DNA from: Crambe crambe
Taxonomy: Eukaryota; Porifera; Demospongiae; Poecilosclerida; Crambeidae
NCBI GenBank assembly: GCA_963924555.1
Contig: OZ004597.1
Span: 6,273,904 to 6,337,903 of the forward strand
Direction: 5' to 3'
Length of the DNA: 64,000 nt
Positions within the stretch are counted from its first letter, which is position 1. The number at the start of each line of letters is the position of its first letter. The notes under the pieces were generated by a model. It was not told the origin of the DNA and did not search any database. It saw only the letters and a list, made by a program, of their open reading frames with translations. A program made the translations under genes and the position numbers. Shown piece by piece: positions 5,426 through 64,000 of this stretch.

Positions 5426-5429
5426 TCCA

Positions 5430-31830: not shown

Positions 31831-32238
31831 ACCCGTAAATCCGTCAATTGTGGGAGGTGTCAACGGAGTGGTTGAATTACAGCCCTCGTACTACTAAGTA
31901 AGGTCAACTGAGGAATACTCTGCTCTACTTGACCTCTCACGCGGTTGTGGCCTTCTTGGGTGTTTCTCTGGCACCTTTCTAGCCGGTTGGCCTCCGTGTC
32001 CATTAGCTGTCCCCCAAAGTGTGAGAAAGAGCCCAAGCGGGAGAAAGGGGGAGGAGGCTTTCAGTGGTCATTGACCTCGAATGAGCTAATTGTGGGTGCA
32101 GTGTCCAAAGGAACGCTCTAATTAAAAGAGCTAACCAAAATGTGACCCAGTAAAAATGACCCACCCACCCCCCTCCATATAGTTGAAAACTCGTTATGTA
32201 TGTATTGTCTTGTTACTCCTCGATTATTACTTGCAGAA

Positions 32239-41765: not shown

Positions 41766-42600
41766 CTTCAATGAATCATAATTATATTGCCAGGCGCGCG
41801 CGCTGAATATCATAGTAGACTGCCGGATTGCAGCTTTAATAGAGGAGATTCATTGTGGATGATTATGAAAGTGTTCTGGACAATTACTACTTACGGAGTC
41901 AGAAAATCAAGGAAAGCAAGATCTGGAACAAGTCACCATTGTCATCACTATTTAATGTAAGGCCAGTGTTAATGATATTCATGTTTCTGGTCAACCGCCC
42001 GCATTGGAAAATTGGCACCGCTCCAGAAGCCATTATTGTATTATTTATACAGCTACTCTGCTGAGTAGCTGCAGCTTGTACTTGTGATGATTTTGTGGCT
42101 AGAAAATGGACATTTTTGACATTGATAATAATGGTATAATGGATAATAACTACCGCCCGCCTGCATGATTGTGAGGAAAAATCCTGACCAGAAACATGAA
42201 TGTCATTAACACTGGCCTAATGTTCATTTGTAGTCCATGCTAGAGCCCATTAGACTCGTGGGGCCAGCCTCGTGTAAAAGCAGAGTCTGGGGACGTGCCT
42301 GTTCTTGACCCGTTCTGCTGAAATGTGTATCAAAGTAGGCATGATCAGACTTGTCATTAGGCTTGAGACCTTATCGGGTTAGGGGATCTCTTACGGTCGA
42401 GTGACGTGTTCACTGGAATGATGTAAATATAATTTGTAGTCCTGACGTTAGTCCCTTTATCACCTACCCACCCTCGATTTAGTGGGCAGCCTCGTTTTTT
42501 TGGTGACCAGGTTGGAATTGACACTAGGGGCCGAATCCAAAAATCACAAAGAGCTAGAAACTCCAACAGTGTTTGTGGAAGCTGCTATATCGAGTATGAA
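41766..42600 (+). other. Copy 2 of the MITE and flank region, no gene
   Basis: Matches 4957-5800, including the right end of the 4671-5092 element and the 5141-5425 inverted repeat. Confidence 0.8.
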
Positions 42601-45600
42601 AAGTATCGTTCTACCTACCTAGGCCCAGAGAGACGGAAGCGCCAGGAGATCGGCCTCGAGAAAGCCTCTTCCAGGAAGATGGAGATAAATCCTACGTAAG
42701 TTGACCAGTTTGTTAAACGGCAGTCTAAATAGCTATAGCTGATGTTTCCATTTCTGATAGGCCAGTTTGCAGTTTGTTGATGAGGAAATGGAATTTTTAG
42801 CTCTAGCTATAGCTACGCACCATCTTACCTTTGTAGCTGAAGCAAACCCAACTCTCGTTCGGCCTTGCCGATTAGCCATCGGCAGAATCTAAACATTCGG
42901 CATGATCGCTTTTTCGACTTTATGATCCAAATCGGTCACGAAAATTATTTTCCTACCAATTCTATGTCAATCTGAGCCTAGATTCGCTTTTGACTGTTAA
43001 AACCCAAATCGGTCTTAATGATTTTATGAAGCTAAATGTCGATTTCGACTGTTTCAAACCAAAATCGGTCGAGAGTTGGAATGACCTTGTAATGTGCTTG
43101 CAGATCACCCAATCGGTGTGCTGCAAATAATTGTTTACATAAAGGGCAATGCTATTATATAGAAATCTTTTTATATTTCAAAGTAATTGTGTTATAGGTG
43201 GTATCATATATTTTTCGAAATTATCGATATCCACAAATTAAACATGTGATCAGAAAGTACACACAGAGAGCAATGTATTGATATCGAAATTATCTGTATA
43301 GACTTGATAACAAAAACGTTATGAGTGAAAAGAGAATTTCTATATTATACAGGTACAACTCCTATATCATACAGGTACAAAACTTCGTTCAAGCCACCTT
43401 AGTGAAACTTTCCGCCTATGAAGATGGAAGCGCCTGGAGAGCAGCCTCGAGTGGATAAAACCTCTTCGCAACCCCAACTGTAGGTTTATCTATTGCCAGT
43501 TTGGTCTAAATAGCGGCTTGTTTTGATCCAACCATAGGTACAGTGATATGCTTCCATAGCTGATGTTTCCATTTCTGATAGTCCTTCTGTAGGTACCAAA
43601 TGGCAGTCTAAATGGTATTTCCATGGCTGATGTTTCAGTAGGTACATTGGCTATAGCCAGTTTGTTAATGGCTATAGCCAGATTGTTCAATGGTTATACC
43701 CTTTTTGTTGAATGGCAGTCTAAATTGTTGATTTCCCAGTTTATCAGTCTAAATAGTTGTGTTTCCATAGCCATTCAAACTGTAGGTACACTCATGTTTC
43801 CCCAACCTCAGTAAGAGTTAGCAAAAACCACCTTATATTTTTATTGTGTGTATTATTTCCATTCCTTCTAGCTGGATGGCCCTACCACACTACCACAATC
43901 GTCAACTCAATCTTCTGGCTGGATATGAATCTTCAAGCTTTCCTATTCGAATATCAATTGTGCAGACCCTCAGTTTCAATTTGCATCTCGTCTTTGAATG
44001 CAGTAGGCCCATGTGAGCTCCCTCGAAATAAGCTCCATTGTGATTCTGAAAATCTGTCTGAAGATCGTATCCCTGCTACATCAGGAGATGAGCCGCTAAA
44101 TCTTCTTTCCGACCCAGAAGTTCATTGCTATAACCAGTTTGCTAAATGGCAGTCTAAATAGCTATAGCTGATGTTTCCATTCGTGATAGTCCAACCGTAA
44201 GGTAAGTTACACCGACTATAGCCATTTGTTAAAATGGCTATAGCCAGTTTGTTGATTCAAGTTTGACATTGATGGTCTTCCATTGGCTATAGCCAGTTGC
44301 TATGGCAGTCTAAATAGCTATAGCTTTAGCTGATGTTTCTATTTCTGATGGTTCTACCTACCATGCCAAATGGCAGTATATATAGCTATATCTGGTATTT
44401 CTTTGGCTGATGTTGAATGGTCCAACCGTAGGTTCGTGGCTATAGCTATACAGTCTAAATAGCTGTAGCTGTTATGTTTCAATAGCCATTCCAACTGTAG
44501 GTGCACTGATGTTTCCTGTCCTACCTTAGTAAGAGTTAGCAAAACCACCTTATTTTTTTGTTGTATATCCCCACTAGCCACTCCCAGCCCATTTTGGTCT
44601 GGAGCCATTGACTCGGCTACCAAGTGAAAGTGCCAGGAGATCAGCCTCGAGAAAGCCTCTTCTAAAGGGCCTAGGAAGATGGAAGCACCATGAGATAAAT
44701 CCTGATACCCCTATGTAAGTTCATGGTTTGTTGAATGGCAGTCTAAATAGCATCTACTGAAGTGTGTGTATCAGCTATAATAGCTGATACACACACTTCA
44801 GTAGATGATAGCAAACCCAACTCTTCTGATACATAATCAGCCTTGCCAATTAGCCATCAGCAGAAATCGGGTGCATTGCCTTCAGCTTCTTGTCCATTCA
44901 CACATGGTGCCTAGATATTTAATTTACCAAGGCTATATGCAATTTTTTGCTGAATCCATATTGAACCTTCAGCTTCTTGTCCATTCACACGTGGTGCCTA
45001 GAAATAATTATAGATGTGAAGCTAAATGACGAGCACGATGCATAGATGCACTTTTGACTGTTTCGGACCCAAATTGGTTATGGCTTTTACCGAGGCTTGA
45101 GAAATAATGTCGGAATGACCTTGTAATGTGCTTGCAAATCACCAATAGGAGTTCTCTGTAATCTGGAAAATTGTCTCCCAAGTTGGTGGGACCTGGTCCC
45201 ATCGGTTCCAAGTTGATGTTGAGACCTGGTCCCACTATTCAAAAGTTGTTGGATAAAAAAGAAATCTAACTCCCTGCAAATGATTGGTTACCTTATTGAA
45301 ACTCTTGTAGCAATCACTTTAGTGGAGAGAGCTAACCTGACGCTTCTGGTATGTCTCAACTGTTACGTCAGTGAATTGCAAGTGGGTTGTCCAATGCTAA
45401 AAGACTTCAACTCTAGGGCTATGTGAGGTTCAGCTATTGTTATTTGGAAAATCTGATATAATTATCATAACCCTCCCATTTTGGTGGGTTAGTAATGAGC
45501 CATTGACTGCAAGAGCCAGTTTGTTAAAATGTCTATAACCAGTTTGTTGATTAAGATGGACACAAGGTTGGAAATGAAATTTTAGCTTTAGCTTACTATA

Positions 45601-48600
45601 GCTACACACACAGTGTAGCTGATCACACACTTCAGTAGATGATGATAGCAAACCCAACTCTTCTGATACGTAATCAGTCTTGCCAATTAGCTGTCAGCTG
45701 AATTCAGCTTCTTGTCCATTCACGCATGATGCCTAGGTTATATACTTGCAATTTTTTGCAAGACGGATAACACTCAAAATAGAATCTAAACATTCGACAT
45801 GATGCCTAGCCTCACTTTGACATCCACACTAATTTTTTTTTTCCTACCAATGCTATAGACTCTGTGTTTCCATAGCCATTCCAACTGTAAGTACACTGAT
45901 GTTTCCAGTCTTAGCAAAAACCACCTTATAATTAATTTTTGTTGTGTGTATAGTCCTTCTAGCTGGATGACCCTATCACACTACCACAGATGTCCAGGGA
46001 GATGGAGATCAGCCTCGAATCGAGCAACCGAGTAGAAAGCCTCTACTTCAGGGCCCAGGAAGATGGAGATAAGCTCTTCCCGACCTGGCACCCGTACAGA
46101 AGTTCAGCAGTTTGTTAAATGGCATTCTAATATAGCTGATGTTTCCATTTGTGATAGTCCAACCGTAAGGTAAGTTACATTGGCTATAGCCATTTGTTAA
46201 AATGTCTATAGCCAGTTTGTTGATTCAGGTTTGGCTCGTGTTTCCATTGATTGTCCTACATTGGCTGTAGCTAGTGGATGTTTCTGATGGTCCTACCATA
46301 CCGTAGATACCAAATGGGCAGTCTAAATAGCTCTATCTGGTATTTCCGTGGCTGATGTTGAATGGTCCAACCGTAGGTTCGTGGCTCTATAGCTGCCTTG
46401 GAAGATGGAAGCACCAGGAGAGCAGCCTCAAGTGGAGAAGACCTGTTCAAGACTCAAATTGTAAGTTTATCTATAGCCTGTTTGGTCTAAATAGTTATAA
46501 TATCGTGGCTTGTTTCCATTTTCGATGGTCCAACTGTAGGTACAGGTAGCTATAGCTGATATGTTTCCATAGCTGATGTTTCCATTTCTGATGGTCGGCT
46601 ATAGCTAGATTGAAAAGTGGTTATGGCCATTTGTTGAAATTAATGTCAGTCTAAATATGCCACATAGCTCACGTTGATGGTCCAACTGTAGGTACGTCAA
46701 CTATAGCCAGTTTGTTGATGGATTGGTTATAGCCTTTTTGTTGAATGGCTATAGCTGATGTTTCCATTTAGCCATAGCCATTAGGTACACTCTACCATAG
46801 TTCTACCACAGCTTTCCTATAAGATTGTCACCCTCGACTCTCACTGTTTCGGTCCAATTTGCATCTCGTCTTTGAATGCAGTAGGCCTATGTGAGCTCCC
46901 TCAAAATCAGCTCCATCATGATTTGGAAAATCTATCTGAAGACGTAACCCCTTTTCATAGCCCACCACGAGATAAATCCTCTTTCCATGGCTATAGCCAG
47001 TGTGTTAAAATGGCAGTCTAAATAGCTATAGCCAATGTTTCCAATTGCCAGTTTGTTAAAATATCTTTATGCAGAAGGTGGACACAAGGTTGGAAATGAA
47101 ATTTTTAACTCAATCTTACCTTTGTAGCTGATTCGAGCTGATCACACACTTCAGTAGATGATGATAGCAAACCCAACTCTTCTGATACGTAATCAGCCTT
47201 GCCGATTAGCCATCAGCAGAAATTGGGTGCATTGCCTTCAGCTTCTTGTCCGTTCACACGTGGTGCCTAGATATTTAATTTACCAAGGCTATATATAGAC
47301 TTGCAATTTTTTGCAAGAGGGTACATTGTGAATCCATATCGAACCTTCAGCTTCTTGTCCATTCACACGTGGTGCCCAGAAATTTACCAAGGCTATAGAC
47401 TTGCAATTTTTTGTGAATCTAAACATTCGGCATGATGCCTGACCTCATCACTTTTTTGAACATTATAATCCAATTTGGTCACAAAAATTGTTTTCCTACC
47501 AATGCTACACCAAATAAGCAGGCTGCCATATTATGGCTACTCCTTGCAGCAAGGATTGTATAAATAGTGATCCCTGAAATGAGGCAACCCCCATATTCAG
47601 GAAGTCTCAATTTATACTTCATAAGGTGCTTTGCAAGTTGGTTGGCAGAGTTCGCGTCTCAACTGTCATGTCAGTGAATTGCAAGTTGGTTGTCCAATGC
47701 TAAAAGACTTTGACTCGGTCCAATTTGCATCTTTTTTTTGAATGCTGTGAGGTTCTCTAGCTCCCAGCTATTGTTATTTGGAAAGCTGGCCGAAGACAAT
47801 ATAATTTTTCCTATATCTATCTCTTTAGCTATTTGACTGGAAGAGCCAGGAGATCAGCCTTGAATCTAGAAAAGCCTCTTCTCGAGGAGATGGAGATCAA
47901 GCTAAATCCTCTTTCCAACCTGGTACCCCTATGTAGGTTCATTTCTGATAGTCCAACCGTTGGTGATTTATATTGGCAGTTTATTAAAATATCCGTAGCC
48001 AATTTGTTAATGTTATGCAACTGTACTGAAGGCGGAGAAAAGTTGCATTAGTCACACACAATCTTACCTTCGTAGCTGATATGAGTCGATCACAAACTTC
48101 AGTAGATGATGACAGAAAACCCCGATACATGATCAGCCTTGCCGATTAGCAATTAGCACAAGTAGGGTGCATTGCATTCTTGTCCATTCACACGTGGTGC
48201 CTAGATAGAAATTTGCCAAGGCTATAATATATAGACTTGCAATTTTTTACAAGCATGATGCCTAGCCTCACTTCTGACTGTTAAAATCCAAATTGGAAAT
48301 TTCAAAAAAAAATCAATTGTTTTACGAGACCAATAGCATTCTAATGTGAATCTAGATTCACTTTTCGACTGTTAAAACCCATTAATGATTTTTTGAAATT
48401 TACCAAGGCTATAGACTTGTGATTTTTTACGAGATCAACAGCACTCAAATATGAAGCTAAATGTCCAGCATGATGCCTAGATTCACTTTTGATCGTTGAA
48501 ATCCGGATTGGGAAGTAATGTCAAGAGTTAATGCTTGCAAACCACCAATAAGAGTTCTTTGTAATCTGGGAAACTCGTCACAAAGGTGAGTGCATACATG

Positions 48601-49250
48601 GTTGAGCCTGGCACGAATGCTAGTTGGACTAAATTTCAGCACATCGTGTCGCCAACAAATTTTCTCACCGAGATGACTTATATGCCTCTACATTAGATAA
48701 TATAACAGATGTTGTGGCACACAAATCAGCATCGTTAAGGAACGGTGCATTAAGTTCGGTATTGGTTTTTTGCTCTCTGCACAAAAATGGAAGGGGAAGG
48801 AACCTCCACTTTTCACGTGGAGAGCCTGGGGATGAGGCTAGACAGTGCTTTGCAAGTTGGTTGGCAGATTTATATTACTGGCTTCTTAACATAAATATCG
48901 CTTGGACCTCAGGCCCTGAAATGAGGCATTCAGGTAGTCGCTTCATATATCCACCATGCATGAGGGTGGCAGCCCAGATTAGTTTACACCACCCAGGTTT
49001 TGTGACCACTCCCTGTTCTAGCAGAGCTCCTATTCGTATGCCTTCTAGCTTAGCCAGAGCTCATATTAATATAGTAAGTTTGATAAAGCTGCATGAATAT
49101 ACAGTTCCTGTTGAGTTTATGGTGTTGTTGCAGTGTGAGGGTATGCTAAAAGTTGTCTTGTTTACTGGGTCTTTGCTGGGTCAGCTAATCCAAAGATCCC
49201 GTACGTTATAGTTGTCGTATTGAGCTGGAATGTGTATTGCAGTGAAAACT
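42600..49250 (+). repeat. Degenerate tandem repeat domain (B region), copy 2
   Basis: Collinear with 5800-12420 with scattered substitutions and small indels (for example 10 extra bases near 45253, and a difference near 47405). One substitution turns the stop at about 12300 of copy 1 into a sense codon (49126-49128), extending an ORF, which shows that reading frames here are not conserved features. Confidence 0.85.
44751..44807. repeat. Perfect 57-nt palindrome, copy 2
   Basis: Identical to 7944-8000; the perfect arms have survived in both copies of the duplication. Confidence 0.9.
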
Positions 49251-49839
49251 AAGTAGCATCTTTAAAAACAGTATTATCTGTGTAACGTAGATGATGACTG
49301 TGTGTGTTGAGTCAACTCTTTCAAACCGGCAATTCCTGCATGTTTGTATGTTTCTCCTACATTATCTTGTCATCAGTATAATGTGTCACCATGTCGTAAT
49401 GGCCAGTTAACTCATGACATGTCATCCTCACTAGTCCTTCAGGTCAGAGGTCAAGTAAACCTTTTGTACAATTGAGGGCTTCCTGCTATGGCGGGGTATA
49501 AGCGTCTTAAACTCTGGGCGAATGTCCCAGTAATCGCCCGGACATATATCCGGGCAAATGCCCGGGCAGTTGCCTGGGCACGGCACAAAAAAGGGGCGTG
49601 ACGACTACACCTTACCTAAAAAGGGCGGGGCAGATCACAAGTGGGCGTAGCTGGACTGCAGACAGATGCCCAGGCACTGCCCGGGCAGATGTCTGGGCGA
49701 ATGCTGGCGTTCAGTAAAGGGTTCAAGCCAGTCTAGCTTTATGCCCAGGCAGAATCGGAATCAGACTTTGTGTGCCCGTGTGTCTCTAGCACATAAATGG
49801 CAAGAAGAAGTAGGGCTGCTGTTTCATTCAGCTCTATAG
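49251..49839 (+). pseudogene. 5' flank and first 14 codons of the integrase-like gene
   Basis: Matches 12420-13013. The start codon at 49798 and the codons for MARRSRAAVSFSS remain, then the sequence jumps at TAG (49837-49839) to the repeat equivalent to 17914 onward. The CCCGGG palindrome cluster (49517-49770) is retained. Confidence 0.85.
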
Positions 49840-50253
49840 GGTCACTATGTGATAGATATCTAATAAATTCTTGTACTAAAAGAGGTCCAACATAGTCCCC
49901 ACTATAGCGGCCACATACTTGAGATATACAGGAAGCCTTCATACAGGGTGTGTAGGAGACCTAGTTGATGTGGTTGAAGCCACATGTCATGTCAAGTGGT
50001 GAGACCACACCTCCTCTGCTGGTAATTTTTTTTTTTTTTAATAGAAATACGGATGATCCTCCCTTTTAAGCAGTTCAGTTATCAACTTAAACTTGGTGAC
50101 AATAAAGATTCAAATAGAGCATTATGAGACTTCTGCGGTCTCGAATTAAACTTTCAAATAAGGGAAAATATCTCCAGAACAAAAAAAACAACAAAAAAAC
50201 GACAAACAAGACTACTTAATGACTTTGGTGATTGGAGAAGAACCTCTGGCATC

Positions 50254-50396
50254 TCATTCTGATTTCCACAGTTCGTGTAAATCTTCGTCATATTTACCTG
50301 TACGTAAAGGAGTGTCAACGATAATTCCAAACAGAGTGTCGACTTACCTTCGACGTACAACTTTTTCACGAATGGATGAGCCAGGTTTGGTGGAAC
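50254..50396 (-). pseudogene. 3' fragment of the kinase-like gene, cut at telomeric repeat
   Basis: Encodes PPNLAHPFVKKLYVEG, the 50-bp intron (50298-50347) and the last exon with stop at 50254-50256, without the 37-bp duplication. It is therefore related to the inverted gene at 18495. The coding sequence stops after 'gtggaac' and continues directly as 'tagggctaggg'. Confidence 0.9.
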
Positions 50397-50414
50397 TAGG
50401 GCTAGGGCTAGGGG
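50396..50414 (+). repeat. Interstitial telomeric repeat 1
   Basis: Three units of TAGGGC ending in an extra G, same orientation as the chromosome end, directly abutting the broken kinase gene. Confidence 0.9.
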
Positions 50415-50600
50415 CATGGAGAAGGATCCCTCACCATCCCTCATATATATAATATGATCCCTTATATTCATATACTTGAGTGTTTTATCCCTCAAATTCG
50501 CAAATTTGAGTCTTTTTTCCCCTTATGGTCATATACTTGGAGGATTTTACCCTTAAGTCAACCTCAACTTCATGGATAAATCTTATCTCGATTTAGGGGT
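50415..50600. other. Short unique stretch, no gene
   Basis: Contains loosely repeated 'tcatatacttgag' phrases (about 50468, 50528). Leads into the 52-bp array. Confidence 0.4.
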
Positions 50601-51020
50601 AAAATATCCATGAGGTTAGGTTTCTTTAACCTGGGTTGAGGTTTCCAGAGGTAAAATAGCCATGAGGTTATGTATTGTTAACCTGGGTTGAGGTTTCCAG
50701 AGGTAAAATAGCCATGAGGTTATGTCCTGTTAACCTGGGTTGAGGTTTCCAGAGGTAAAATAGCCATGAGGTTATGTCTTGTTAACCTGGGTTGAGGTTT
50801 CCAGAGGTAAAATAGCCATGAGGTTATGTCCTGTTAACCTGGGTTGAGGTTTCCAGAGGTAAAATAGCCATGAGGTTATGTCTTGTTAACCTGGGTTGAG
50901 GTTTCCAGAGGTAAAATAGCCATGAGGTTTTCCAACGTTAACCTGGGTTGAGGTTTCCAGAGGTAAAATAGCCATGAGGTTTTGTTTCGTTAACAGGGGT
51001 TGAGGTAAAGTATCCATGAG
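50600..51020 (+). repeat. 52-bp minisatellite, array 1
   Basis: About eight units of 52 bp with core 'aacctgggttgaggtttcca' followed by 'gaggtaaaatagccatgagg'. Variation is mostly in the linker (tgtcttgtt / tgtcctgtt / tccaacgtt). Confidence 0.95.
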
Positions 51021-51029
51021 GTTAGTTAA

Positions 51030-51290
51030 GTATTTATGAAGTCCCTCAAGTCACGGTAATGCACAGTAGATGTCCCTCAAGTCTATTCCTACACTTTGAA
51101 GTATTACCAAGTACACTTAAGTCCCTCAAGTATAGATAAAGACATTCAAAGTCCCTCAAGGCCAGATAGAGATTACGGAAGTCCCTCAAGTCATGGTAAT
51201 GCACAGTAGATGTCCCTCAAGTCTATTCCTACACTTTGAAGTATTACGAAGTACACTTAAGTCCCTCAAGTCCATGCATCCGTAGCGCAG
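51030..51290 (+). repeat. About 140-bp repeat rich in 'gtccctcaag', array 1
   Basis: Nearly two units, from 'gtccctcaagtcatggtaat' through 'ctattcctacactttgaagt'. Each unit contains several diverged copies of the 10-11-bp word. Related arrays at 52890-53045 and 56520-56940. Confidence 0.85.
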
Positions 51291-51348
51291 GCTGAAACCA
51301 CAGAAGGGGAAGTGCACGCCGTAGCCAGCCATATGACGCACTCAGTAG

Positions 51349-51736
51349 ATGTCCACCAGTCAACCTACCAACAGGCCGGCAACACTGAAAAGACTGTCAA
51401 AACGTAAGTCATTTACAGTCTGCACACACACTAGTTCAACTCACATTGTACCATTCAGATACAAGAAGTTGTGGCCACGCCTTCCCAAAGCACATCAAAC
51501 TCCACCCCCAGCAAAAAAGAAGACTCTATTCCGAAGAAGAATACTCAATCCTAAAGAGATATTTCGACATTGGCGGAGAGAGGTCTAAAGTGGCAAAACT
51601 TTCTGAGTGTGCAGATTTCCTTAGAGAGTACCAGAGAGATATGCAGTTTGAGGGGAAGGACACAGGACAAGATCAAAAACATGATAAAGCAGAGCAAGTG
51701 ACAGCAAACCAACAGTTCTTTTTATTTAAAATGTAA
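51349..51736 (+). CDS. Small spliced ORF, possibly SANT/Myb-like, function unknown
   Basis: ATG at 51349, exon 1 to 51403, 55-bp intron 51404-51458 (GTAAGT...CATTCAG), exon 2 to a stop at 51734-51736. The phases join in frame, giving 110 residues. The middle (RRLYSEEEYSILKRYF...LSECADFLREYQ) recalls a short helical motif with an acidic E-E-E-Y start, a Cys, and a following basic/amide-rich tail; similar C-terminal motifs occur in animal transposon-associated proteins. That resemblance is weak. A scrambled partial copy lies at 53050-53330, inverted in part. It is the only candidate gene between the kinase fragment and the telomere; it could be a captured 3' exon. Confidence 0.45.
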
Positions 51737-51849
51737 TCAATCATTCTCACAAAAAACAGTACTAATGTAATCAATCATTCTCACAATTTCTTTCTATTTC
51801 TAATCAAGTCTCACAATTCAAATTTTTCCTCTAGAAATTTAGATACTTT

Positions 51850-52200
51850 TTGCTGGACATCCCTCCTAGCTATACACTTATCTTTCCCTCCCGGCTTGCA
51901 CGTCTCGGTGAATATCCTTCATGGATCCTTCCTGGATATTCTGGGACTTTGAAATTTCAGATACTTCTAGGAGGACAATTGGTGGCCCCCATGGATTCTG
52001 AGAGGACAATTGGTGACCCCCATGGATTCTGGGAGGACAATTGGTGACCCCCATGGGCCAGATACATCATCCCTCCTAGCTATGACCTTACCTTTCCCTC
52101 CTGGCTTGCACATCTCAGTGAATATCCTTCATGGTTTCGTATTCGATCCTTCCTGGATATTCTGGGACTTTGAAATTTCAGCTCCTTCTTGGAGGATCCA
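51850..52200 (+). repeat. Composite unit of the 31-bp/250-bp satellite, isolated copies
   Basis: One full and one partial unit with 'ggcttgca' + 'tctcggtgaatatccttcat' and 'aggacaattggtgaccccca'. Same family as 53340-55127. Confidence 0.9.
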
Positions 52201-52875
52201 GAGGTAAAATAGCCATGAGGTTATGTCTTGTTAACCTGGGTTGAGGTTTCCAGAGGTAAAATAGCCATGAGGTTATCCATCGTTAACTTGGGTTGAGGTT
52301 TCCAGAGGTAAAATAGCCATGAGGTTATGTCTTGTTAACCTGGGTTGAGGTTTCCAGAGGTAAAATAGCCATGAGGTTATCCAACGTTAACCTGGGTTGA
52401 GGTTTCCAGAGGTAAAATAGCCATGAGGTTATGTCTTGTTAATCTGGGTTGAGGTTTCCAGAGGTAAAATAGCCATGAGGTTATGTCTTGTTAATCTGGG
52501 TTGAGGTTTCCAGAGGTAAAATAGCCATGAGGTTATCCAATGTTAACCTGGGTTGAGGTTTCCAGAGGTAAAATAGCCATGAGGTTATGTCTTGTTAACC
52601 TGGGTTGAGGTTTCCAGAGGTAAAATAGCCATGAGGTTATCCAACGTTAACCTGGGTTGAGGTTTCCAGAGGTAAAATAGCCATGAGGTTATGTCTTGTT
52701 AACCTGGGTTGAGGTAAAATAGCCATGAGGTTATCCAACGTTAACCTGGGTTGAGGTTTCCAGAGGTAAAATAGCCATGAGGTTATGTCTTATTAACCTG
52801 GGTTGAGGTTTTCAGAGGTAAAATAGCCATGAGGTTTTGTTTCGTTAACAGGGGTTGAGGTAAAGTATCCATGAG
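52195..52875 (+). repeat. 52-bp minisatellite, array 2
   Basis: About thirteen units, one of them shortened near 52710. Linkers tend to alternate between a 'tgtcttgtt' and a 'tccaacgtt' type, suggesting a two-unit higher-order repeat. Confidence 0.95.
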
Positions 52876-52889
52876 GTTAGTTAAGTATT

Positions 52890-53340
52890 TATGAAGTCCC
52901 TCAAGTCATGGTAATGCACAGTAGATGTCCCTCAAGTCTATTCCTACATTTGGAAGTATTACCAAGTACACTTAAGTCCCTCAAGTCCATGCAAAGTCCC
53001 TAAAGGCCTGATAGAGATTACAAAAGTCCCTCAAGTCATGGTAATGCACAAGAAGTTGTGGCCACGCCTTCCCAAAGCACATCAAACTCCACCCCTCAAC
53101 CACCAGCAAGTGTATAGCTAGGAGGGATGTCCAGCCAAAAGTATCTAAATTTCTAGTCCTAATCGAGAGGAAAAATTTTTTATAATTGAATTGTGAGACT
53201 TGATTTTAAATATAAAGAAATTGTGAGAATGATTGATTACATTAGAACTGTTTTTTGTGAGAATGATTGATTAGTCGAAATATCTCTTTAGGATTGAGTA
53301 TTCTTCTTCGGAATAGAGTCGTCTCTTTTTTATCTTTCCC
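52890..53340. repeat. Rearranged block: 'gtccctcaag' repeats plus scrambled copy of the 51.4-51.85-kb ORF region
   Basis: 52890-53045 repeats the about-140-bp family; 53050-53085 matches 51465-51500 directly; 53170-53330 matches 51530-51850 in reverse complement. No intact gene. Confidence 0.75.
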
Positions 53341-55127
53341 TCCCGGCTTGCACGTCTCGGTGAATATCCTTCATGGATCCTTCCTGGATATTCTGGGACC
53401 TTGAAATTTCAGATACTTCTAGGAGGACAATAGGTGGCCCCCATGGATTCTGAGAGGACAATTGGTGACCCCCATGGGCCAGATATATCATCCCTCCTAG
53501 CTATGACCTTACCTTGCACATCTCAGTGGATATCCTTCATGGTTTCGTATTCGATCCTTCCTGGATATTCTGGGACTTTGAAATTTCAGCTCCTTCTTGG
53601 AGGACAATTGGTGGCCCCCATGGATTCTTGGAGGACAATTGGTGGCCCCCATGGATCCTGAGAGGACAATTGGTGACCCCCATGGATTCTGGGAGGACAA
53701 TTGGTGACCCCCATGGGCCAGATATATCATCCCTCCTAGCTATGACCTTACCTTTCCCTCCTGGCTTGCACATCTCAGTGAATATCCTTCATGGTTTCGT
53801 ATTCGATCCTTCCTGGATATTCTGGGACTTTGAAATTTCAGCTCCTTCTTGGAGGACAATTGGTGGCCCCCATGGATTCTTGGAGGACAATTGGTGGCCC
53901 CCATGGATCCTGAGAGGACAATTGGTGACCCCCATGGATTCTGGGAGGACAATTGGTGACCCCCCATGGGCCAGATATATCATCCCTCCTAGCTATGACC
54001 TTACCTTTCCCTCCTGGCTTGCACATCTCAGTGAATATCCTTCATGGTTTCGTATTCGATCCTTCCTGGATATTCTGGGACTTTGAAATTTCAGCTCCTT
54101 CTTGGAGGACAATTGGTGGCCCCCATGGATTCTTGGAGGACAATTGGTGGCCCCCATGGATCCTGAGAGGACAATTGGTGACCCCCATCATCCCTCCTAG
54201 CTATGACCTTACCTTTCCCTCCTGGCTTGCACATCTCAGTGAATATCCTTCATGGTTTCATATTCGATCCTTCCTGGATATTCTGGGACTTTGAAATTTC
54301 AGCTCCTTCTTGGAGGACAATTGGTGGCCCCCATGGATTCTTGGAGGACAATTGGTGGCCCCCATGGATCCTGAGAGGACAATTGGTGACCCCCATGGAT
54401 TCTGGGAGGACAATTGGTGATCCCCCATGGGCCAGATATATCATCCCTCCTAGCTATGACCTTACCTTTCCCTCCTGGCTTGCACGTCTCAGTGAATATC
54501 CTTCATGGTTTCGTATTCGATCCTTCCTGGATATTCTGGGACTTTGAAATTTCAGATACTTCTAGGAGGACAATTGGTGGCCCCCATGGATTCTGAGAGG
54601 ACAATTGGTGACCAGATATATCATCCCTCCTAGCTATGACCTTACCTTTCCCTCCTGGCTTGCATATCTCAGTGAATATCCTTCATGGTTTCGTATTCGA
54701 TCCTTCCTGGATATTCTGGGACTTTGAAATTTCAGCTCCTTCTTGGAGGACAATTGGTGGCCCCCATGGATTCTTGGAGGACAATTGGTGGCCCCCATGG
54801 ATCCTGAGAGGACAATTGGTGACCCCCATGGATTCTGGGAGGACAATTGGTGACCCCCCATGGGCCAGATATATCATCCCTCCTAGCTATGACCTTACCT
54901 TTCCCTCCTGGCTTGCACATCTCAGTGAATATCCTTCATGGTTTCGTATTCGATCCTTCCTGGATATTCTGGGACTTTGAAATTTCAGATACTTCTAGGA
55001 GGACAATTGGTGGCCCCCATGGATTCTGAGAGGACAATTGGTGACCAGATATATCATCCCTCCTAGCTATGACCTTACCTTTCCCTCCTGGCTTGCACGT
55101 CTCAGTGAATATCCTTCATGGTTTCAT
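53340..55127 (+). repeat. Higher-order satellite with 31-bp subrepeats
   Basis: Units run from 'ttccctcctggcttgcac' through 'ggatattctgggactttgaa' to two to four 31-bp subunits ('aggacaattggtggccccca'). Distances between successive 'cttgca' marks are about 253, 208, 252, 181, 252 and 181 bp, depending on the number of 31-bp subunits. Long overlapping ORFs on both strands follow from the repetition and are not taken as genes. Confidence 0.95.
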
Positions 55128-55385
55128 AGAAGGGATGACTAGGGCTAGATGCAACTCGGAAGGGATGACTAGAGCTAGATTCAACTTGGAAGGGATGTCT
55201 AGGGCTAGATCCAACTTGGAAGGGATGTCTAGGGCTAAATGCAACTCAGAAGGGATGACTAGGGCTAGATGCAACTCGGAAGGGATGACTAGGGCTAGAT
55301 GCAACTCGGAAGGGATGACTAGGGCTAGATGCAACTTGGAAGGGATGATTAGGGCAAGATGCAACTCGGAAGGGCTAGATTTCAA
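55128..55385 (+). repeat. 30-bp minisatellite carrying an embedded telomere-like motif
   Basis: Eight or nine units of 30 bp, 'gaagggatgactagggctag' plus 'atgcaactcg'. Each includes CTAGGGCTAG, i.e. one and a half telomeric hexamers. Confidence 0.95.
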
Positions 55386-55529
55386 AGTATATAACCTACA
55401 TGGCTAAATTAGGTGCCCCGGGTTAATACAGGTTGAGGTTATAAACCTACATGGCTAAATTAGGTGCCCCCGGGTTAATACAGGTTGAGGTTATAAACCT
55501 ACATGGCTAAATTAGGTGCCCCCGGGTTA
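55386..55529 (+). repeat. About 53-bp repeat, three units
   Basis: Units 'cctacatggctaaattaggt' followed by 'gccccgggttaatacaggtt'; the end 'ggttgaggt' recalls the 52-bp family. Confidence 0.9.
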
Positions 55530-55551
55530 ATAGGGCTAGGGCTAGGGCCCT
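55530..55551 (+). repeat. Interstitial telomeric repeat 2
   Basis: 'tagggctagggctagggccc', about three units in the forward orientation, between two different repeat blocks. Confidence 0.85.
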
Positions 55552-56520
55552 AGAAAGTGTCCCTTTTTGTGTCCATTTAGGGTCATTTTGTGTCCATGAG
55601 ATTGACATTGTGTCTCTTTAAAACCTCTGTGTCCAATTTTGGAAGTCACTGTGTCCTTCATTTTCGAGGAATTTAGTAACCCCTTTTTGAAAAAATAATA
55701 AAGATGCGTCCTTCAACCTCTCCTTTGTGGCCTTCAATCTACATGGTGTCCTTTTTAAATCTCTGTCCCTTTTCTGTGTCCTTTCATCTCTAATGTGCCC
55801 CAGTTAAGAGTTATCGAGCTTAAACTTTGAGTACTTCTTTCTCAAGGAAGAAATGGTCTTAAAATTTCAAATACTACTTCATTATGAAGGGTATTCTTTC
55901 TATTACTTGTTCACAGGAACTAATATATCTCAAAGTATGGTCTACTATGCCAATCGTCCTCTCAAAATGAGCATCTCAATTATATACTCCAATAAAATTT
56001 ATTTTAAAGTTCCTATAAGGTGTCTCTATTTTATTTCTTGTTCCTTATGATCTATTTTTCTTACCATATTTATTTGTTTGCATATAGATAAAGACGAACA
56101 ATAAGGGATTGGAGGACACAAGTGTCCACTACATTTATTCACGTATCATCATTCTGTTAACTATCAATTGCTTTATCTAGTACTCTATTTCATTGAAAAA
56201 AATATTATTTCTATATTCATCACAAGTTGGACACAAGCGTCCCATTTCCTCTGTACATATCTGCACTACATCAATGAATAGTATAATCCTCCTTGTGGTA
56301 TATCTTCGGTGTAATAGATGTACTTCAAGTCTATTTCACGAATATGAAAATTTGGGACACAAAACCCCCCTTTTTTCAAATTTACATCTTGTATTGGGTA
56401 TTTGTCTCAAGATTTCCAATATAAAGTGTGTCTTCCTACTACTTGTGAACAGGAACTACTACTATGCCAACGGTCCTCTCGAAATGAACTCCTTGATTAT
56501 AATACTCCATTGTAAAGACA
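55552..56520 (+). other. Subtelomeric sequence with 'gtgtcc'-rich start and a partial duplication
   Basis: 55555-55800 is dominated by 'tgtgtcc' words. 55870-55975 is repeated in diverged form at about 56410-56510 (around 'ctacttgt-aacaggaact'). Short ORFs only; none is recognised. Confidence 0.5.
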
Positions 56521-56940
56521 TGCAAAGTCCCTCAAGGCCTGATAGAGACTACGGATGTGGTAATGCAAAGTCCACGTCCCTCAAGTCTATTCCGATATTT
56601 AGAGGTATTACCAAGTACACGTAAGTCCCCCAAGTCCAGATAAAGACATGCAAAGTCCCTCAAGGCCTGATAGAGACTACGGAAGTCCCTCATGGTAATG
56701 CACAGTAGATGTCCCTCAAGTCTATTCCGATATTTAGAAGTATTACTGAGTACACGTAATTCCCCCAAGTCCAGATAAAGACATACAAAGTCCCTCAAGG
56801 CCTGATAGAGTCTCTCAAGTCATGGTAATGCACAGTCCATGTCCCTCAAGTCTATCCAAGTACACGTAAGTCCCCCAAATCCAGATAAAGACATGCTCAA
56901 TGCCTGATAGAGACTACGGAAGTCTCTCAAGTCATGGTAA
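56520..56940 (+). repeat. 'gtccctcaag' repeat family, array 3
   Basis: About three diverged units of roughly 130 bp with 'cctgatagagactacgga' and 'agtccagataaagacatg', the same family as 51030 and 52890. Confidence 0.85.
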
Positions 56941-56941
56941 T

Positions 56942-57540
56942 GCTTTCAAAGAGTCTCATTTGATCATAAATAATTGCTTATCTACAGTGATACAAAGGCC
57001 ACAAAGAGTCATCAAAAGCCTAAAAATGTGGTATCGAGGAAGGGACACAAAAAGTTCATCTGCAAAAAATTACTCACACAGCCTAGACTTTCAAAGAGTC
57101 TCATTTGATCATAAATATTGCTTATCTACAGTGGTACAATAAAAGGGACACAAAAAGGCCACAAAGAGTCATCTGCTACAAAAGGCCATAAAATGCAGTA
57201 TCCAGGAAGGGACACAAAAAGTTCATCTGCAAAAAATCACTCACACAGTCTAGAGTCTCATTTGATCATAAATATTGCTTATCTACAGTGGTACAATAAA
57301 AGGGACACAAAAAGGCCACAAAGAGTCATCTGCTACAAAAGGCCATAAAATGCAGTATCCAGGAAGGGACACAAAAAGTTCATTTGCAAAAAATCACTCA
57401 CACAGCCTAGATTTTCAAACAGTCTCATTTTATCATAAATATTGCTTCTCTACAGTGGTACAATGAAAGGGACACAAAAAGGCCACAAAGAGTCATCTGC
57501 TACAAGAGGCCATAAAATGCAGTATCGAGGGAGAATTATA
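56942..57540 (+). repeat. About 157-bp tandem repeat, four units
   Basis: Units start 'gagtctcatttgatcataaa' at about 56951, 57096, 57253 and 57419, and include 'agggacacaaaaaggccaca'. Adjacent unit ORFs are similar because the units are. Confidence 0.9.
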
Positions 57541-57879
57541 AAGGACACAAAATTCCTCAAAATAACAACCAAAAGAGCGCATACACAGCCTAAACATTCC
57601 TAGAGTCTCTCAGTTCTTCACAAAGATCCATTCAAGTTAACGTAACGACAAAAGGGACACAAAAATGGCCACGATGCCCTGAAAAACCTGTCCAAAAAAC
57701 AAAATTTACTGAAAAAATAGCTTTTTTTGACTTAAAAATGGCGTAGAAAGCGTGGGCTGGTGATAGCCACGAAATTAGCAGGAAAAAACCACATCTACAG
57801 CTTTAGGACACAAAAATTTAGAAGGTCCCAATTCCACAAAAAAGGAGCCGCCTGTGGGGCTCACTGCCATACGAAATTA
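57541..57879 (+). other. Unique AT-rich stretch, no gene
   Basis: Repeated 'gggacacaaaaa' words fade into unique sequence. No coding signal. Confidence 0.4.
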
Positions 57880-58035
57880 GCGCACTTCCGTGACGTCCCC
57901 GTACCACTTCCTTCCGTTATTAGACAAATTTCAATTTTGCGGTAGCCCGGGGCTGCCGCGCGGCCACGGAAAGGACACACCCCCATCCGGTCGGGCATGC
58001 GCAGTAGTACTTCCTGTGTGAAACCCCGTCTAAAT
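57880..58035. promoter_or_regulatory. CpG-rich promoter-like patch next to a telomere tract
   Basis: GC-rich, CpG-dense island in AT-rich surroundings. Within it: 'cacttccg' followed by 'tgacgtcc' (57883-57898; ETS-like and CRE-like), 'cacttccttccg' (about 57905), 'ggcatgcgcag' (57994-58004; NRF1-like) and 'acttcctg' (58009-58016; ETS-like). These motifs typify metazoan housekeeping CpG promoters. It ends about 6 bp before the telomere tract at 58041. Direction and use are inference. Confidence 0.45.
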
Positions 58036-58040
58036 TTTTC

Positions 58041-58110
58041 CTAGGGCATGGGCTAGGGCTAGGGCTAGGGCTAGGGCTAGGGCTAGGGCTAGGGCTAGGG
58101 CTAGGGCTAG
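58041..58110 (+). repeat. Interstitial telomeric repeat 3
   Basis: About eleven TAGGGC units (first one imperfect, 'tagggcatgggc') in forward orientation, followed immediately by 'tgcatcaag'. Confidence 0.95.
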
Positions 58111-58670
58111 TGCATCAAGTTTTGTGTTGAGCGAACCCACGCCTGTGTTCTTCTTTGGGTAGTTCTTTTTGGCTGTTCTTGTTGCCATTGTTCTTGGTAC
58201 GTCTGGTGGTAGGAAAGTTCTGGTGAATGAAGTTCTGCGTCTGATAAAACAGAGCAGAGTGGTCTCTGCCACAGTTCGATAGCCGGTAGTAAATAGAGTA
58301 GAGAGATATAGCAGGTAAAAAATCTTTTTTTTGGAAAAAAGAAACACCAACGTTTCAACTAGTGGATCTAGTCTTCGTCAGGGTGAAATGAATAAAGCAC
58401 GTGGCGTGTGTCTTATATACCTAGCTATATGAGTGTTCTGATTGGTCAACGTTTGGTGAGTCTGATTGGTCGGCTATGACGTATTGGCAATGACGTATTG
58501 GCATTTTGCTTCGGCTCCGTCTGGTGGGTGTGGCCTTCACGATCTTTTTCTCGGTCTTGTGTTGGGAGGAGAACTTGCTTCTTTTCTGTCTCTGTTGGGT
58601 CTTTTTCTCTGTTGTTGAGGTGGGATCCTGCAAGTGGTAGTTAGGGATTGTCAGAGGGTGTCTGTTTGGT
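58111..58670 (-). mobile_element. Possible Penelope-like or retrozyme-like fragment between telomere tracts
   Basis: Read on the minus strand, it contains a hammerhead-like core (58381-58352), then an A/T stretch and a short open frame ending in telomere repeats. Telomere tracts bound both sides. No RT or GIY-YIG domain is recognisable, so the element would be truncated or non-autonomous. Called from the ribozyme-like motif and position only. Confidence 0.35.
58352..58381 (-). ncRNA. Hammerhead-ribozyme-like core
   Basis: Minus strand reads CTGACGA (58381-58375), a stem II with ACTAG paired to CTAGT, then GAAAC (58356-58352) followed by GTTGG. CUGANGA, stem II and GAAA are the conserved hammerhead core in the right order and spacing. 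The stem III/stem I partner strand and cleavage triplet were not located with confidence; a candidate 'aacgtt' lies at 58447-58452. The same words occur in the terminal repeats of Penelope-like elements. Confidence 0.45.
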
Positions 58671-58998
58671 AATTCTCCGTGTCGGAGGTGTCTCATTGGG
58701 TGTGGTGCTTGGTTCTGGTCTGGTGTTTGGGGCCAGGCCCGAACACAGCCTTGATAGTGTCCAGTGTTTGGGGCTGGACAGTTATCTCGGCTTTGTTTGT
58801 AGCAGGGAGACGAATGGGGGTTTTTATTGGGCCAGTTGGGTCTGTAGTGTTTAGTCAGTGGGTGTGGTTCTCCATGTCGGAGATGTCTCATTGGGTGTGG
58901 TGCTTGGTTCTGGTCTGGTGTTTGGGGCCAGACCCGAACACAGCCGTGATAGTGTCCAGTGTTTGGGGCTGGACAGTTATCTTGGCTTTGTTGGTAGC
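58670..58998 (+). repeat. About 195-bp tandem duplication
   Basis: 'ctcattgggtgtggtgcttg' and about 130 bp around it occur at 58691 and 58886 with few differences. Confidence 0.9.
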
Positions 58999-59470
58999 AA
59001 GGGCTAGGTTTGTACGGGAAGAGTTAGAGTGGGTGTGGTCTTGTGACCACTTCTAGGTGTATAGGGATGGTTTTCTCACAGTGTTATGACAACATCTGGA
59101 TGTATTTGTGTCGGTTTCTTGACTCCAAGGCTAGGTTTGTATGGCCAAAGGGCTTGGCTAGGGCCAGGGGAAGAACTAGAGGGGGTGTGGTCTTGTGACC
59201 GCTTCTAGGTGTGCAGGGGTGGTTTTCTCATAGTGTTGTGACAACATCTAGGTGTATGTGATGTACTTGTGTTGATTTCTTGACTTTAAGGCTAGGTTTG
59301 TATAGCCAAAGGGCTTAGCTAGGGCCAGGGGAAGAGCTAGAGAGGGTGTGGTCTTGTGACGACCTCTAGGTGTACAGGGGTCGTTTTCTGACAGTGTTGT
59401 GACAACATCTAGGTGTATGGGATGTACTCGTGTGGATTTCTTGACTCCGAGGCTAGGTTTGTATGGTCAA
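58999..59470 (+). repeat. About 155-bp subtelomeric tandem repeat, three units
   Basis: Units with 'gtggtcttgtgacc' (about 59035, 59188, 59348), 'tgttgtgacaacatctagg' and 'gactccaaggctaggtttgt'. Each ends in a degenerate telomere-like 'ggcttggctagggccagggg'. Confidence 0.9.
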
Positions 59471-62400
59471 GGGCTAGGGCTAGGGCTAGGGCTAGGGCTA
59501 GGGCTAGGGCTAGGGGCTAGGGCTAGGGCTAGGGCTAGGGCTAGGGCTAGGGCTAGGGCTAGGGCTAGGGCTAGGGCTAGGGCTAGGGCTAGGGCTAGGG
59601 CTAGGGCTAGGGCTAGGGCTAGGGCTAGGGCTAGGGCTAGGGCTAGGGCTAGGGCTAGGGCTAGGGCTAGGGCTAGGGCTAGGGCTAGGGCTAGGGCTAG
59701 GGCTAGGGCTAGGGCTAGGGCTAGGGCTAGGGCTAGGGCTAGGGCTAGGGCTAGGGCTAGGGCTAGGGCTAGGGCTAGGGCTAGGGCTAGGGCTAGGGCT
59801 AGGGCTAGGGCTAGGGCTAGGGCTAGGGCTAGGGCTAGGGCTAGGGCTAGGGCTAGGGCTAGGGCTAGGGCTAGGGCTAGGGCTAGGGCTAGGGCTAGGG
59901 CTAGGGCTAGGGCTAGGGCTAGGGCTAGGGCTAGGGCTAGGGCTAGGGCTAGGGCTAGGGCTAGGGCTAGGGCTAGGGCTAGGGCTAGGGCTAGGGCTAG
60001 GGCTAGGGCTAGGGCTAGGGCTAGGGCTAGGGCTAGGGCTAGGGCTAGGGCTAGGGCTAGGGCTAGGGCTAGGGCTAGGGCTAGGGCTAGGGCTAGGGCT
60101 AGGGCTAGGGCTAGGGCTAGGGCTAGGGCTAGGGCTAGGGCTAGGGCTAGGGCTAGGGCTAGGGCTAGGGCTAGGGCTAGGGCTAGGGCTAGGGCTAGGG
60201 CTAGGGCTAGGGCTAGGGCTAGGGCTAGGGCTAGGGCTAGGGCTAGGGCTAGGGCTAGGGCTAGGGCTAGGGCTAGGGCTAGGGCTAGGGCTAGGGCTAG
60301 GGCTAGGGCTAGGGCTAGGGCTAGGGCTAGGGCTAGGGCTAGGGCTAGGGCTAGGGCTAGGGCTAGGGCTAGGGCTAGGGCTAGGGCTAGGGCTAGGGCT
60401 AGGGCTAGGGCTAGGGCTAGGGCTAGGGCTAGGGCTAGGGCTAGGGCTAGGGCTAGGGCTAGGGCTAGGGCTAGGGCTAGGGCTAGGGCTAGGGCTAGGG
60501 CTAGGGCTAGGGCTAGGGCTAGGGCTAGGGCTAGGGCTAGGGCTAGGGCTAGGGCTAGGGCTAGGGCTAGGGCTAGGGCTAGGGCTAGGGCTAGGGCTAG
60601 GGCTAGGGCTAGGGCTAGGGCTAGGGCTAGGGCTAGGGCTAGGGCTAGGGCTAGGGCTAGGGCTAGGGCTAGGGCTAGGGCTAGGGCTAGGGCTAGGGCT
60701 AGGGCTAGGGCTAGGGCTAGGGCTAGGGCTAGGGCTAGGGCTAGGGCTAGGGCTAGGGCTAGGGCTAGGGCTAGGGCTAGGGCTAGGGCTAGGGCTAGGG
60801 CTAGGGCTAGGGCTAGGGCTAGGGCTAGGGCTAGGGCTAGGGCTAGGGCTAGGGCTAGGGCTAGGGCTAGGGCTAGGGCTAGGGCTAGGGCTAGGGCTAG
60901 GGCTAGGGCTAGGGCTAGGGCTAGGGCTAGGGCTAGGGCTAGGGCTAGGGCTAGGGCTAGGGCTAGGGCTAGGGCTAGGGCTAGGGCTAGGGCTAGGGCT
61001 AGGGCTAGGGCTAGGGCTAGGGCTAGGGCTAGGGCTAGGGCTAGGGCTAGGGCTAGGGCTAGGGCTAGGGCTAGGGCTAGGGCTAGGGCTAGGGCTAGGG
61101 CTAGGGCTAGGGCTAGGGCTAGGGCTAGGGCTAGGGCTAGGGCTAGGGCTAGGGCTAGGGCTAGGGCTAGGGCTAGGGCTAGGGCTAGGGCTAGGGCTAG
61201 GGCTAGGGCTAGGGCTAGGGCTAGGGCTAGGGCTAGGGCTAGGGCTAGGGCTAGGGCTAGGGCTAGGGCTAGGGCTAGGGCTAGGGCTAGGGCTAGGGCT
61301 AGGGCTAGGGCTAGGGCTAGGGCTAGGGCTAGGGCTAGGGCTAGGGCTAGGGCTAGGGCTAGGGCTAGGGCTAGGGCTAGGGCTAGGGCTAGGGCTAGGG
61401 CTAGGGCTAGGGCTAGGGCTAGGGCTAGGGCTAGGGCTAGGGCTAGGGCTAGGGCTAGGGCTAGGGCTAGGGCTAGGGCTAGGGCTAGGGCTAGGGCTAG
61501 GGCTAGGGCTAGGGCTAGGGCTAGGGCTAGGGCTAGGGCTAGGGCTAGGGCTAGGGCTAGGGCTAGGGCTAGGGCTAGGGCTAGGGCTAGGGCTAGGGCT
61601 AGGGCTAGGGCTAGGGCTAGGGCTAGGGCTAGGGCTAGGGCTAGGGCTAGGGCTAGGGCTAGGGCTAGGGCTAGGGCTAGGGCTAGGGCTAGGGCTAGGG
61701 CTAGGGCTAGGGCTAGGGCTAGGGCTAGGGCTAGGGCTAGGGCTAGGGCTAGGGCTAGGGCTAGGGCTAGGGCTAGGGCTAGGGCTAGGGCTAGGGCTAG
61801 GGCTAGGGCTAGGGCTAGGGCTAGGGCTAGGGCTAGGGCTAGGGCTAGGGCTAGGGCTAGGGCTAGGGCTAGGGCTAGGGCTAGGGCTAGGGCTAGGGCT
61901 AGGGCTAGGGCTAGGGCTAGGGCTAGGGCTAGGGCTAGGGCTAGGGCTAGGGCTAGGGCTAGGGCTAGGGCTAGGGCTAGGGCTAGGGCTAGGGCTAGGG
62001 CTAGGGCTAGGGCTAGGGCTAGGGCTAGGGCTAGGGCTAGGGCTAGGGCTAGGGCTAGGGCTAGGGCTAGGGCTAGGGCTAGGGCTAGGGCTAGGGCTAG
62101 GGCTAGGGCTAGGGCTAGGGCTAGGGCTAGGGCTAGGGCTAGGGCTAGGGCTAGGGCTAGGGCTAGGGCTAGGGCTAGGGCTAGGGCTAGGGCTAGGGCT
62201 AGGGCTAGGGCTAGGGCTAGGGCTAGGGCTAGGGCTAGGGCTAGGGCTAGGGCTAGGGCTAGGGCTAGGGCTAGGGCTAGGGCTAGGGCTAGGGCTAGGG
62301 CTAGGGCTAGGGCTAGGGCTAGGGCTAGGGCTAGGGCTAGGGCTAGGGCTAGGGCTAGGGCTAGGGCTAGGGCTAGGGCTAGGGCTAGGGCTAGGGCTAG

Positions 62401-64000
62401 GGCTAGGGCTAGGGCTAGGGCTAGGGCTAGGGCTAGGGCTAGGGCTAGGGCTAGGGCTAGGGCTAGGGCTAGGGCTAGGGCTAGGGCTAGGGCTAGGGCT
62501 AGGGCTAGGGCTAGGGCTAGGGCTAGGGCTAGGGCTAGGGCTAGGGCTAGGGCTAGGGCTAGGGCTAGGGCTAGGGCTAGGGCTAGGGCTAGGGCTAGGG
62601 CTAGGGCTAGGGCTAGGGCTAGGGCTAGGGCTAGGGCTAGGGCTAGGGCTAGGGCTAGGGCTAGGGCTAGGGCTAGGGCTAGGGCTAGGGCTAGGGCTAG
62701 GGCTAGGGCTAGGGCTAGGGCTAGGGCTAGGGCTAGGGCTAGGGCTAGGGCTAGGGCTAGGGCTAGGGCTAGGGCTAGGGCTAGGGCTAGGGCTAGGGCT
62801 AGGGCTAGGGCTAGGGCTAGGGCTAGGGCTAGGGCTAGGGCTAGGGCTAGGGCTAGGGCTAGGGCTAGGGCTAGGGCTAGGGCTAGGGCTAGGGCTAGGG
62901 CTAGGGCTAGGGCTAGGGCTAGGGCTAGGGCTAGGGCTAGGGCTAGGGCTAGGGCTAGGGCTAGGGCTAGGGCTAGGGCTAGGGCTAGGGCTAGGGCTAG
63001 GGCTAGGGCTAGGGCTAGGGCTAGGGCTAGGGCTAGGGCTAGGGCTAGGGCTAGGGCTAGGGCTAGGGCTAGGGCTAGGGCTAGGGCTAGGGCTAGGGCT
63101 AGGGCTAGGGCTAGGGCTAGGGCTAGGGCTAGGGCTAGGGCTAGGGCTAGGGCTAGGGCTAGGGCTAGGGCTAGGGCTAGGGCTAGGGCTAGGGCTAGGG
63201 CTAGGGCTAGGGCTAGGGCTAGGGCTAGGGCTAGGGCTAGGGCTAGGGCTAGGGCTAGGGCTAGGGCTAGGGCTAGGGCTAGGGCTAGGGCTAGGGCTAG
63301 GGCTAGGGCTAGGGCTAGGGCTAGGGCTAGGGCTAGGGCTAGGGCTAGGGCTAGGGCTAGGGCTAGGGCTAGGGCTAGGGCTAGGGCTAGGGCTAGGGCT
63401 AGGGCTAGGGCTAGGGCTAGGGCTAGGGCTAGGGCTAGGGCTAGGGCTAGGGCTAGGGCTAGGGCTAGGGCTAGGGCTAGGGCTAGGGCTAGGGCTAGGG
63501 CTAGGGCTAGGGCTAGGGCTAGGGCTAGGGCTAGGGCTAGGGCTAGGGCTAGGGCTAGGGCTAGGGCTAGGGCTAGGGCTAGGGCTAGGGCTAGGGCTAG
63601 GGCTAGGGCTAGGGCTAGGGCTAGGGCTAGGGCTAGGGCTAGGGCTAGGGCTAGGGCTAGGGCTAGGGCTAGGGCTAGGGCTAGGGCTAGGGCTAGGGCT
63701 AGGGCTAGGGCTAGGGCTAGGGCTAGGGCTAGGGCTAGGGCTAGGGCTAGGGCTAGGGCTAGGGCTAGGGCTAGGGCTAGGGCTAGGGCTAGGGCTAGGG
63801 CTAGGGCTAGGGCTAGGGCTAGGGCTAGGGCTAGGGCTAGGGCTAGGGCTAGGGCTAGGGCTAGGGCTAGGGCTAGGGCTAGGGCTAGGGCTAGGGCTAG
63901 GGCTAGGGCTAGGGCTAGGGCTAGGGCTAGGGCTAGGGCTAGGGCTAGGGCTAGGGCTAGGGCTAGGGCTAGGGCTAGGGCTAGGGCTAGGGCTAGGGCT
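59471..64000 (+). repeat. Telomere, (TAGGGC)n
   Basis: About 755 units of the hexamer TAGGGC/GGGCTA, essentially perfect; one unit near 59514 has an extra G. The G-rich strand runs 5'-3' toward the window end, the polarity of a true right-hand chromosome terminus. The hexamer differs from TTAGGG by one base. The tract continues to the last base of the window. Confidence 0.97.

Follow-up and report, generated by a model that had tools for sequence, protein, structure and literature searches.

The window analysed here comes from the sponge Crambe crambe and comprises 64,000 bases near the right end of chromosome 17 (contig OZ004597.1, positions 6,273,904 to 6,337,903), and its outermost part is occupied by a tandem array of the hexamer TAGGGC (Table 1). 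An earlier note, made from the letters alone, had described about 4.5 kb of nearly perfect TAGGGC with telomere polarity. This description was borne out: applied to the window, TRF reported a period of 6 with 755 copies and 99% matches, and 753 perfect units were counted within the 4,530 bases from 59,471 to 64,000 (99.7%). Exact TAGGGC runs extend from 59,475 to 59,510 and from 59,518 to 63,999, so that the array contains a single interruption, the unit TAGGGGC. Within the window, (TAGGGC)3 has 757 matches, and 100 dinucleotide shuffles yielded none. The G-rich strand is oriented 5′ to 3′ toward the right end. The edge of the window is not the end of the array, which continues to the last base of scaffold C20 (6,340,956 bases), listed as chromosome 17 with 6.34 Mb in the table of the assembly (PMC12166358). 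TAGGGC, CTAGGG and AGGGCT are one repeat read in different frames, and CTAGGG equals TTAGGG with the first T replaced by C.

Table 1. Repeat features at the outer end of the window, in positions of the 64,000-base stretch.
Feature	Position	Strand	Remarks
Terminal telomere array (TAGGGC)n	59470..64000	+	G-rich strand toward chromosome end; another 3,053 bases of array follow outside the window
7-base unit TAGGGGC, the one break in the array within the window	59511..59517	+	
161-bp tandem repeat in 3 copies, adjoining the telomere array on its inner side	59016..59491		TRF; last bases overlap the array
Telomere-adjoining stretch	58505..59470		99.5% identical to its counterpart beside the telomere at C9 right
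Internal TAGGGC tract, 11.7 copies	58041..58110	+	TRF; 9 perfect units at 58,054-58,107
Internal tract, 3 TAGGGC units	55531..55548	+	Outer edge of shared subtelomeric block
Subtelomeric satellite blocks	50396..55532		Parts recur, with up to 99.7% identity, at the right ends of C3, C5, C14, C15 and C16; 145 bases at C13 right
Internal tract, 2 TAGGGC units	50397..50408	+	

Shorter tracts of the same hexamer inside the chromosome end, likewise claimed in the earlier note, were recovered at three places (Table 1). In the comparison of the subtelomere, the stretch overlapping the window was left uncounted, and left ends consisting of array only (3 kb) were left out with the exception of C21 left. 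Seven of the 20 other end stretches match the region from 50,000 to 59,470 over at least 100 bases, C13 right over only 145 bases. Close to the chromosome end, the window also contains two large direct duplications of recent origin, one joining 4,957-13,013 with 41,766-49,839 (99.4% identity) and the other joining 1-4,717 with 29,649-34,401 (98.0% identity).

The terminal repeat across the genome

The assembly odCraCram1.1 comprises 18 chromosomes and 124 scaffolds with 143,197,480 bases (longest scaffold 9,683,886, N50 7,656,483, N90 6,535,638); it is based on PacBio HiFi reads at 459-fold coverage, reaches a QV of 58.1 and was scaffolded with Hi-C data (PMC12166358). Our genome searches covered 119 contigs with 143,139,886 bases, and all 36 ends of the 18 chromosome-scale contigs were examined over 2 to 9 kb each. 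A look at the other contig ends, as had been proposed earlier, revealed TAGGGC and not TTAGGG. At 27 of the 36 ends (left 15 of 18, right 12 of 18) a TAGGGC array with telomere polarity reaches the last base, which speaks against an internal satellite. These terminal arrays comprise 112,860 bases with 18,670 perfect units (99.3%), and the right-end arrays that are fully visible measure about 2.1 to 7.8 kb. A terminal, G-rich short repeat with the right polarity, being the same on different chromosomes, is what is expected of telomeres of the telomerase type.

Other telomere units were searched as well. The 112,860 bases of the 27 terminal arrays and their inner edges contain one TTAGGG string, and in none of the 27 terminal-array stretches does TTAGGG follow directly behind AGGGC or AGGG. 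Genome-wide (143 Mb), (TAGGGC)3 yielded 41,319 matches, overlapping ones counted, and (TTAGGG)3 yielded 5 matches at three internal sites (C12, C17 and C21) and none at the ends. The vertebrate-type unit is thus not the unit of these chromosome ends. The same applies to the nematode type: tandem TTAGGC of at least two units was not detected in the stretches examined, and TTAGGC as such is absent from those examined stretches that consist of array.

The nine other ends are of different kinds. In the case of C6 right, the array is present and its final 45 bases or so are degenerate. At C10 right the array turns head to head, from G strand to C strand, at about 1,860-1,950 of the end stretch; the turn contains no N and passes through a short palindromic CTAGGC stretch, and is either a fold-back artefact of the reads or a real end-to-end fusion. 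At C12 left (1-760), a 20-bp satellite precedes an array whose polarity is reversed; this is probably a misoriented end piece. No array with telomere polarity was found in the stretches examined at C1 left, C1 right, C13 right and C17 right (9 kb each), C15 left (3 kb) and C21 right (2 kb). C1 left has one 54-base tract of reversed polarity within the 9 kb; a longer array, likewise reversed, starts at about 10.2 kb. The last 2 kb of C21 right (chromosome 18; 5,669,325-5,671,324) are bacterial with a GC content of 56%. They encode PotB- and PotC-like polyamine transporter permeases with scores below the NCBIfam curated cut-offs, the PotC-like protein showing up to 83% identity to Gammaproteobacteria MAGs. 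This end is probably a symbiont misjoin in the assembly.

A preference was observed for the phase in which the 27 arrays stop. Fifteen end with ...GCTAG (left 9 of 15, right 6 of 12), and the remaining ones with ...CTAGG (5), ...AGGGC (3), ...GGCTA (2), ...GGGCT (1) and ...TAGGG (1). Compared with equal phases, this bias gives a chi-square p of 6e-6, in a test performed after the preference had been noticed. The inner array junctions at 13 right ends occur in four phases. If blunting during library preparation strips the 3′ overhang, the last assembled base corresponds to the 5′ end of the C strand, which would then read 5′-CTAG; human C strands end mostly with 5′-CTAA. We infer that the arrays stop at genuine chromosome termini trimmed by a common rule; assembly behaviour could contribute to the phase preference. 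The shared ...GCTAG stop fits natural rather than broken ends.

Units with a single substitution that lie between perfect units are few, and their counts are accordingly small: CAGGGC was found 19 times (C15 right), TAGGGA six times on six ends, and two others once each. C15 right carries the only terminal array rich in CAGGGC, with 19 occurrences of TAGGGCCAGGGC and 9 with two CAGGGC, which suggests a local amplification of the variant. TAGGGA alters position 1 in the TTAGGG frame. Positions 1 and 3 are those at which variants appear in telomerase-positive human cells (PMC3919612), and TAGGGA changes a hexamer position at which variants made by human telomerase occur as well.

Telomerase, end-binding genes and the origin of the repeat

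The earlier note expected an altered telomerase RNA template and matching end-binding proteins. TERT and POT1 genes were found; neither Rfam RF00024 nor pattern searches revealed a telomerase RNA carrying a CCCTAG template. A TERT gene, as expected for telomerase-type telomeres, is represented on C6 by exons of the RNA-binding domain: the stronger of two Telomerase_RBD matches (PF12009; E = 1e-13) has one TAG within its alignment, and the other reaches E = 1.9e-6. Four TERT sequences of solved structure are matched by one exon piece (E = 5e-4 to 2.5e-3); another piece has no PDB match. The locus contains readable motifs that we take to be motif 1 and the T motif; the 12 kb read revealed none of the catalytic motifs. 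POT1 is present as two diverged genes, each with a pair of N-terminal OB domains, one of them on the chromosome of the window itself (C20, 501,900-504,700; open frame of 623 amino acids, 556 of them read; PF02765 1.2e-25, PF16686 1.3e-13) and the other on C21 (149,900-152,400; 491 amino acids; PF02765 1.7e-12, PF16686 9.7e-7). Compared with those positions of human POT1 that we presume to be DNA contacts, POT1a has kept F62, Q94, Y161, Y223, D224 and others, and differs at R80, Y89, K90 and H266. A TRF-type protein (PF08558) was not matched in the genome, nor in the control genomes, and the telobox DNA pattern gave no match.

The search for the telomerase RNA with Rfam model RF00024 revealed no match at E <= 10 genome-wide, and 27 of 286 first-look candidates were scored. 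Sites with CTAGCCCTAGC followed by a base other than C numbered 286, and the reversed control gave 15. The pattern searches, in which template phase, length and spacing were guesses, led to no convincing locus. A template with a U-rich tract matched 221 times, overlaps counted (control 6), several of the matches listed lying in repeated families; among these listed matches are seven identical ones on C10. A template with a U-tract and an A-tract gave 11 rows at 7 places (control 0), and in a further search 1 row (control 0), which were unconvincing by eye. A vertebrate pseudoknot motif, 3 mismatches being allowed at most, was found at 10 sites (control 1), none of the 10 having a template of at least 8 repeat letters nearby. 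Interstitial CTAGCCCTAG-type sites, some of them in dispersed repeats, are in excess over the reversed control, as if telomere-like seeds had spread.

TAGGGC, or CTAGGG, as the telomere repeat of the C. crambe genome is strongly supported by homogeneous arrays that are terminal and oriented as telomeres at 27 of 36 ends, by the near absence of TTAGGG, and by the TERT exons and POT1 genes. We regard the array of the window as the right telomere of chromosome 17 and TAGGGC as the repeat of the genome, presumably made by an ordinary telomerase with an altered RNA template; we give this reading a probability of about 0.9. The change of the template is the expected cause of TAGGGC and an inferred step, since the telomerase RNA gene was not found. 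Such a template could read (C)UAGCCCUAG(C), with GGGCTA added per round, and would be of the CUAGCCCUAG type and not CUAACCCUAA. In the simplest mechanism, the exchange of T to C at position 1 of the repeat would correspond to an exchange of A to G in the template. Known templates comprise 1.5 to 2 repeats in vertebrates and 8 nucleotides in the apple snail (PMC8480181). A template of 8 to 9 nucleotides may copy the changed position only once, so that one point mutation would switch every new repeat. With 11 nucleotides, the alignment part would have to change as well, or a C-A mismatch would have to be tolerated. The retained TAGGG core may have eased continued protein binding. The C-rich strand might be trimmed to a preferred 5′ end, 5′-CTAG..., as the counterpart of the human 5′-CTAA..., and such trimming would explain the one favoured phase at the assembled ends.

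In the main alternative, ALT-like recombination maintains TAGGGC as a terminal or subtelomeric satellite after loss of telomerase, or a short canonical TTAGGG cap lies beyond the assembled ends. In its favour are the telomerase RNA that was not found, the internal TAGGGC tracts and the many interstitial CTAGCCCTAG sites (286 versus 15 in the reversed control), and the higher-order CAGGGC variants at C15 right, which are of a kind that recombination can spread. However, the TERT exons with the T and 1 motifs are present, the near-pure hexamer on different chromosomes is consistent with copying from one template, and the shared stop phase fits natural ends. A canonical cap is opposed by the five (TTAGGG)3 matches of the whole assembly, none of them terminal. 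We consider this alternative improbable.

Hardly any weight is left for an artefact of sequencing or assembly, or for contaminating telomeres of another organism: telomere repeats are mis-called on some platforms, C21 right ends in bacterial sequence and the assembly looks faulty at C10 right and C12 left, but HiFi depth and QV, Hi-C scaffolding and a hexamer that does not differ between left ends, right ends and the internal tracts beside blocks shared between chromosomes make a base-calling error unlikely. Base-calling artefact, internal satellite and contamination were rejected on the basis of read quality, the agreement of both orientations and the terminal position at 27 of 36 ends.

Beyond the identity of the repeat, we tentatively suggest, as a possible but doubtful scenario, that a sponge lineage has fixed genome-wide the CTAGGG that is unstable in humans. 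This may have happened by one mutation in a short template, with the C-strand rule kept and the end-binding proteins, including the two POT1, adjusted. If true, C. crambe would represent a natural experiment on the replacement of a telomere repeat without loss of chromosomes.

Comparison with known telomeres

The word stem 'telomer' does not occur in the main text of the C. crambe genome report (PMC12166358), and the literature searched, with partial coverage, named no species with TAGGGC in any frame as its own telomere, although unpublished tables may list one. In a 2022 paper, the diversity of telomeres and templates in non-insect animals was called 'monotonous' (PMC9841428), and TTAGGG was detected by FISH in three sponge species (Sakai 2007, as cited in PMC5793068). 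CTAGGG in a sponge contradicts this picture of TTAGGG sponges and monotonous animal telomeres. In practice, probes or searches for TTAGGG would miss the telomeres of this species.

The (TTAGGG)n telomeres of most animals and those of C. crambe are alike in the hexamer, the TAGGG core, the polarity, the kilobase terminal arrays and the TERT and POT1 genes. They differ in position 1, which is C and not T in C. crambe, and in the almost complete absence of (TTAGGG)3. In Hymenoptera, switches of the telomere repeat match the telomerase RNA template, and the RNA genes were identified (PMC9841428). A similar mechanism, in which the motif follows the RNA template, is expected for C. crambe, although its RNA escaped our searches. 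The joint change of telomerase RNA, POT1 and double-strand binders becomes testable in this sponge.

Nematode telomeres consist of (TTAGGC)n (PMC10767889). Both this unit and TAGGGC are animal hexamers in which one C replaces another base; in nematodes, however, the last G of TTAGGG is changed to C, whereas in C. crambe the first T is changed and GGG is kept. A counterpart in sequence is found in humans, where the identical hexamer in another frame, CTAGGG, is a minority variant inside TTAGGG telomeres and is associated with instability (PMC3919612, PMC3867476). It shows diminished binding of TRF1 and TRF2 in vitro and forms a quadruplex with one G-C-G-C tetrad. In C. crambe, this same hexamer makes up nearly the whole array. 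Since its repeat equals the human variant linked to instability, C. crambe would therefore be a natural system with CTAGGG as the whole telomere.
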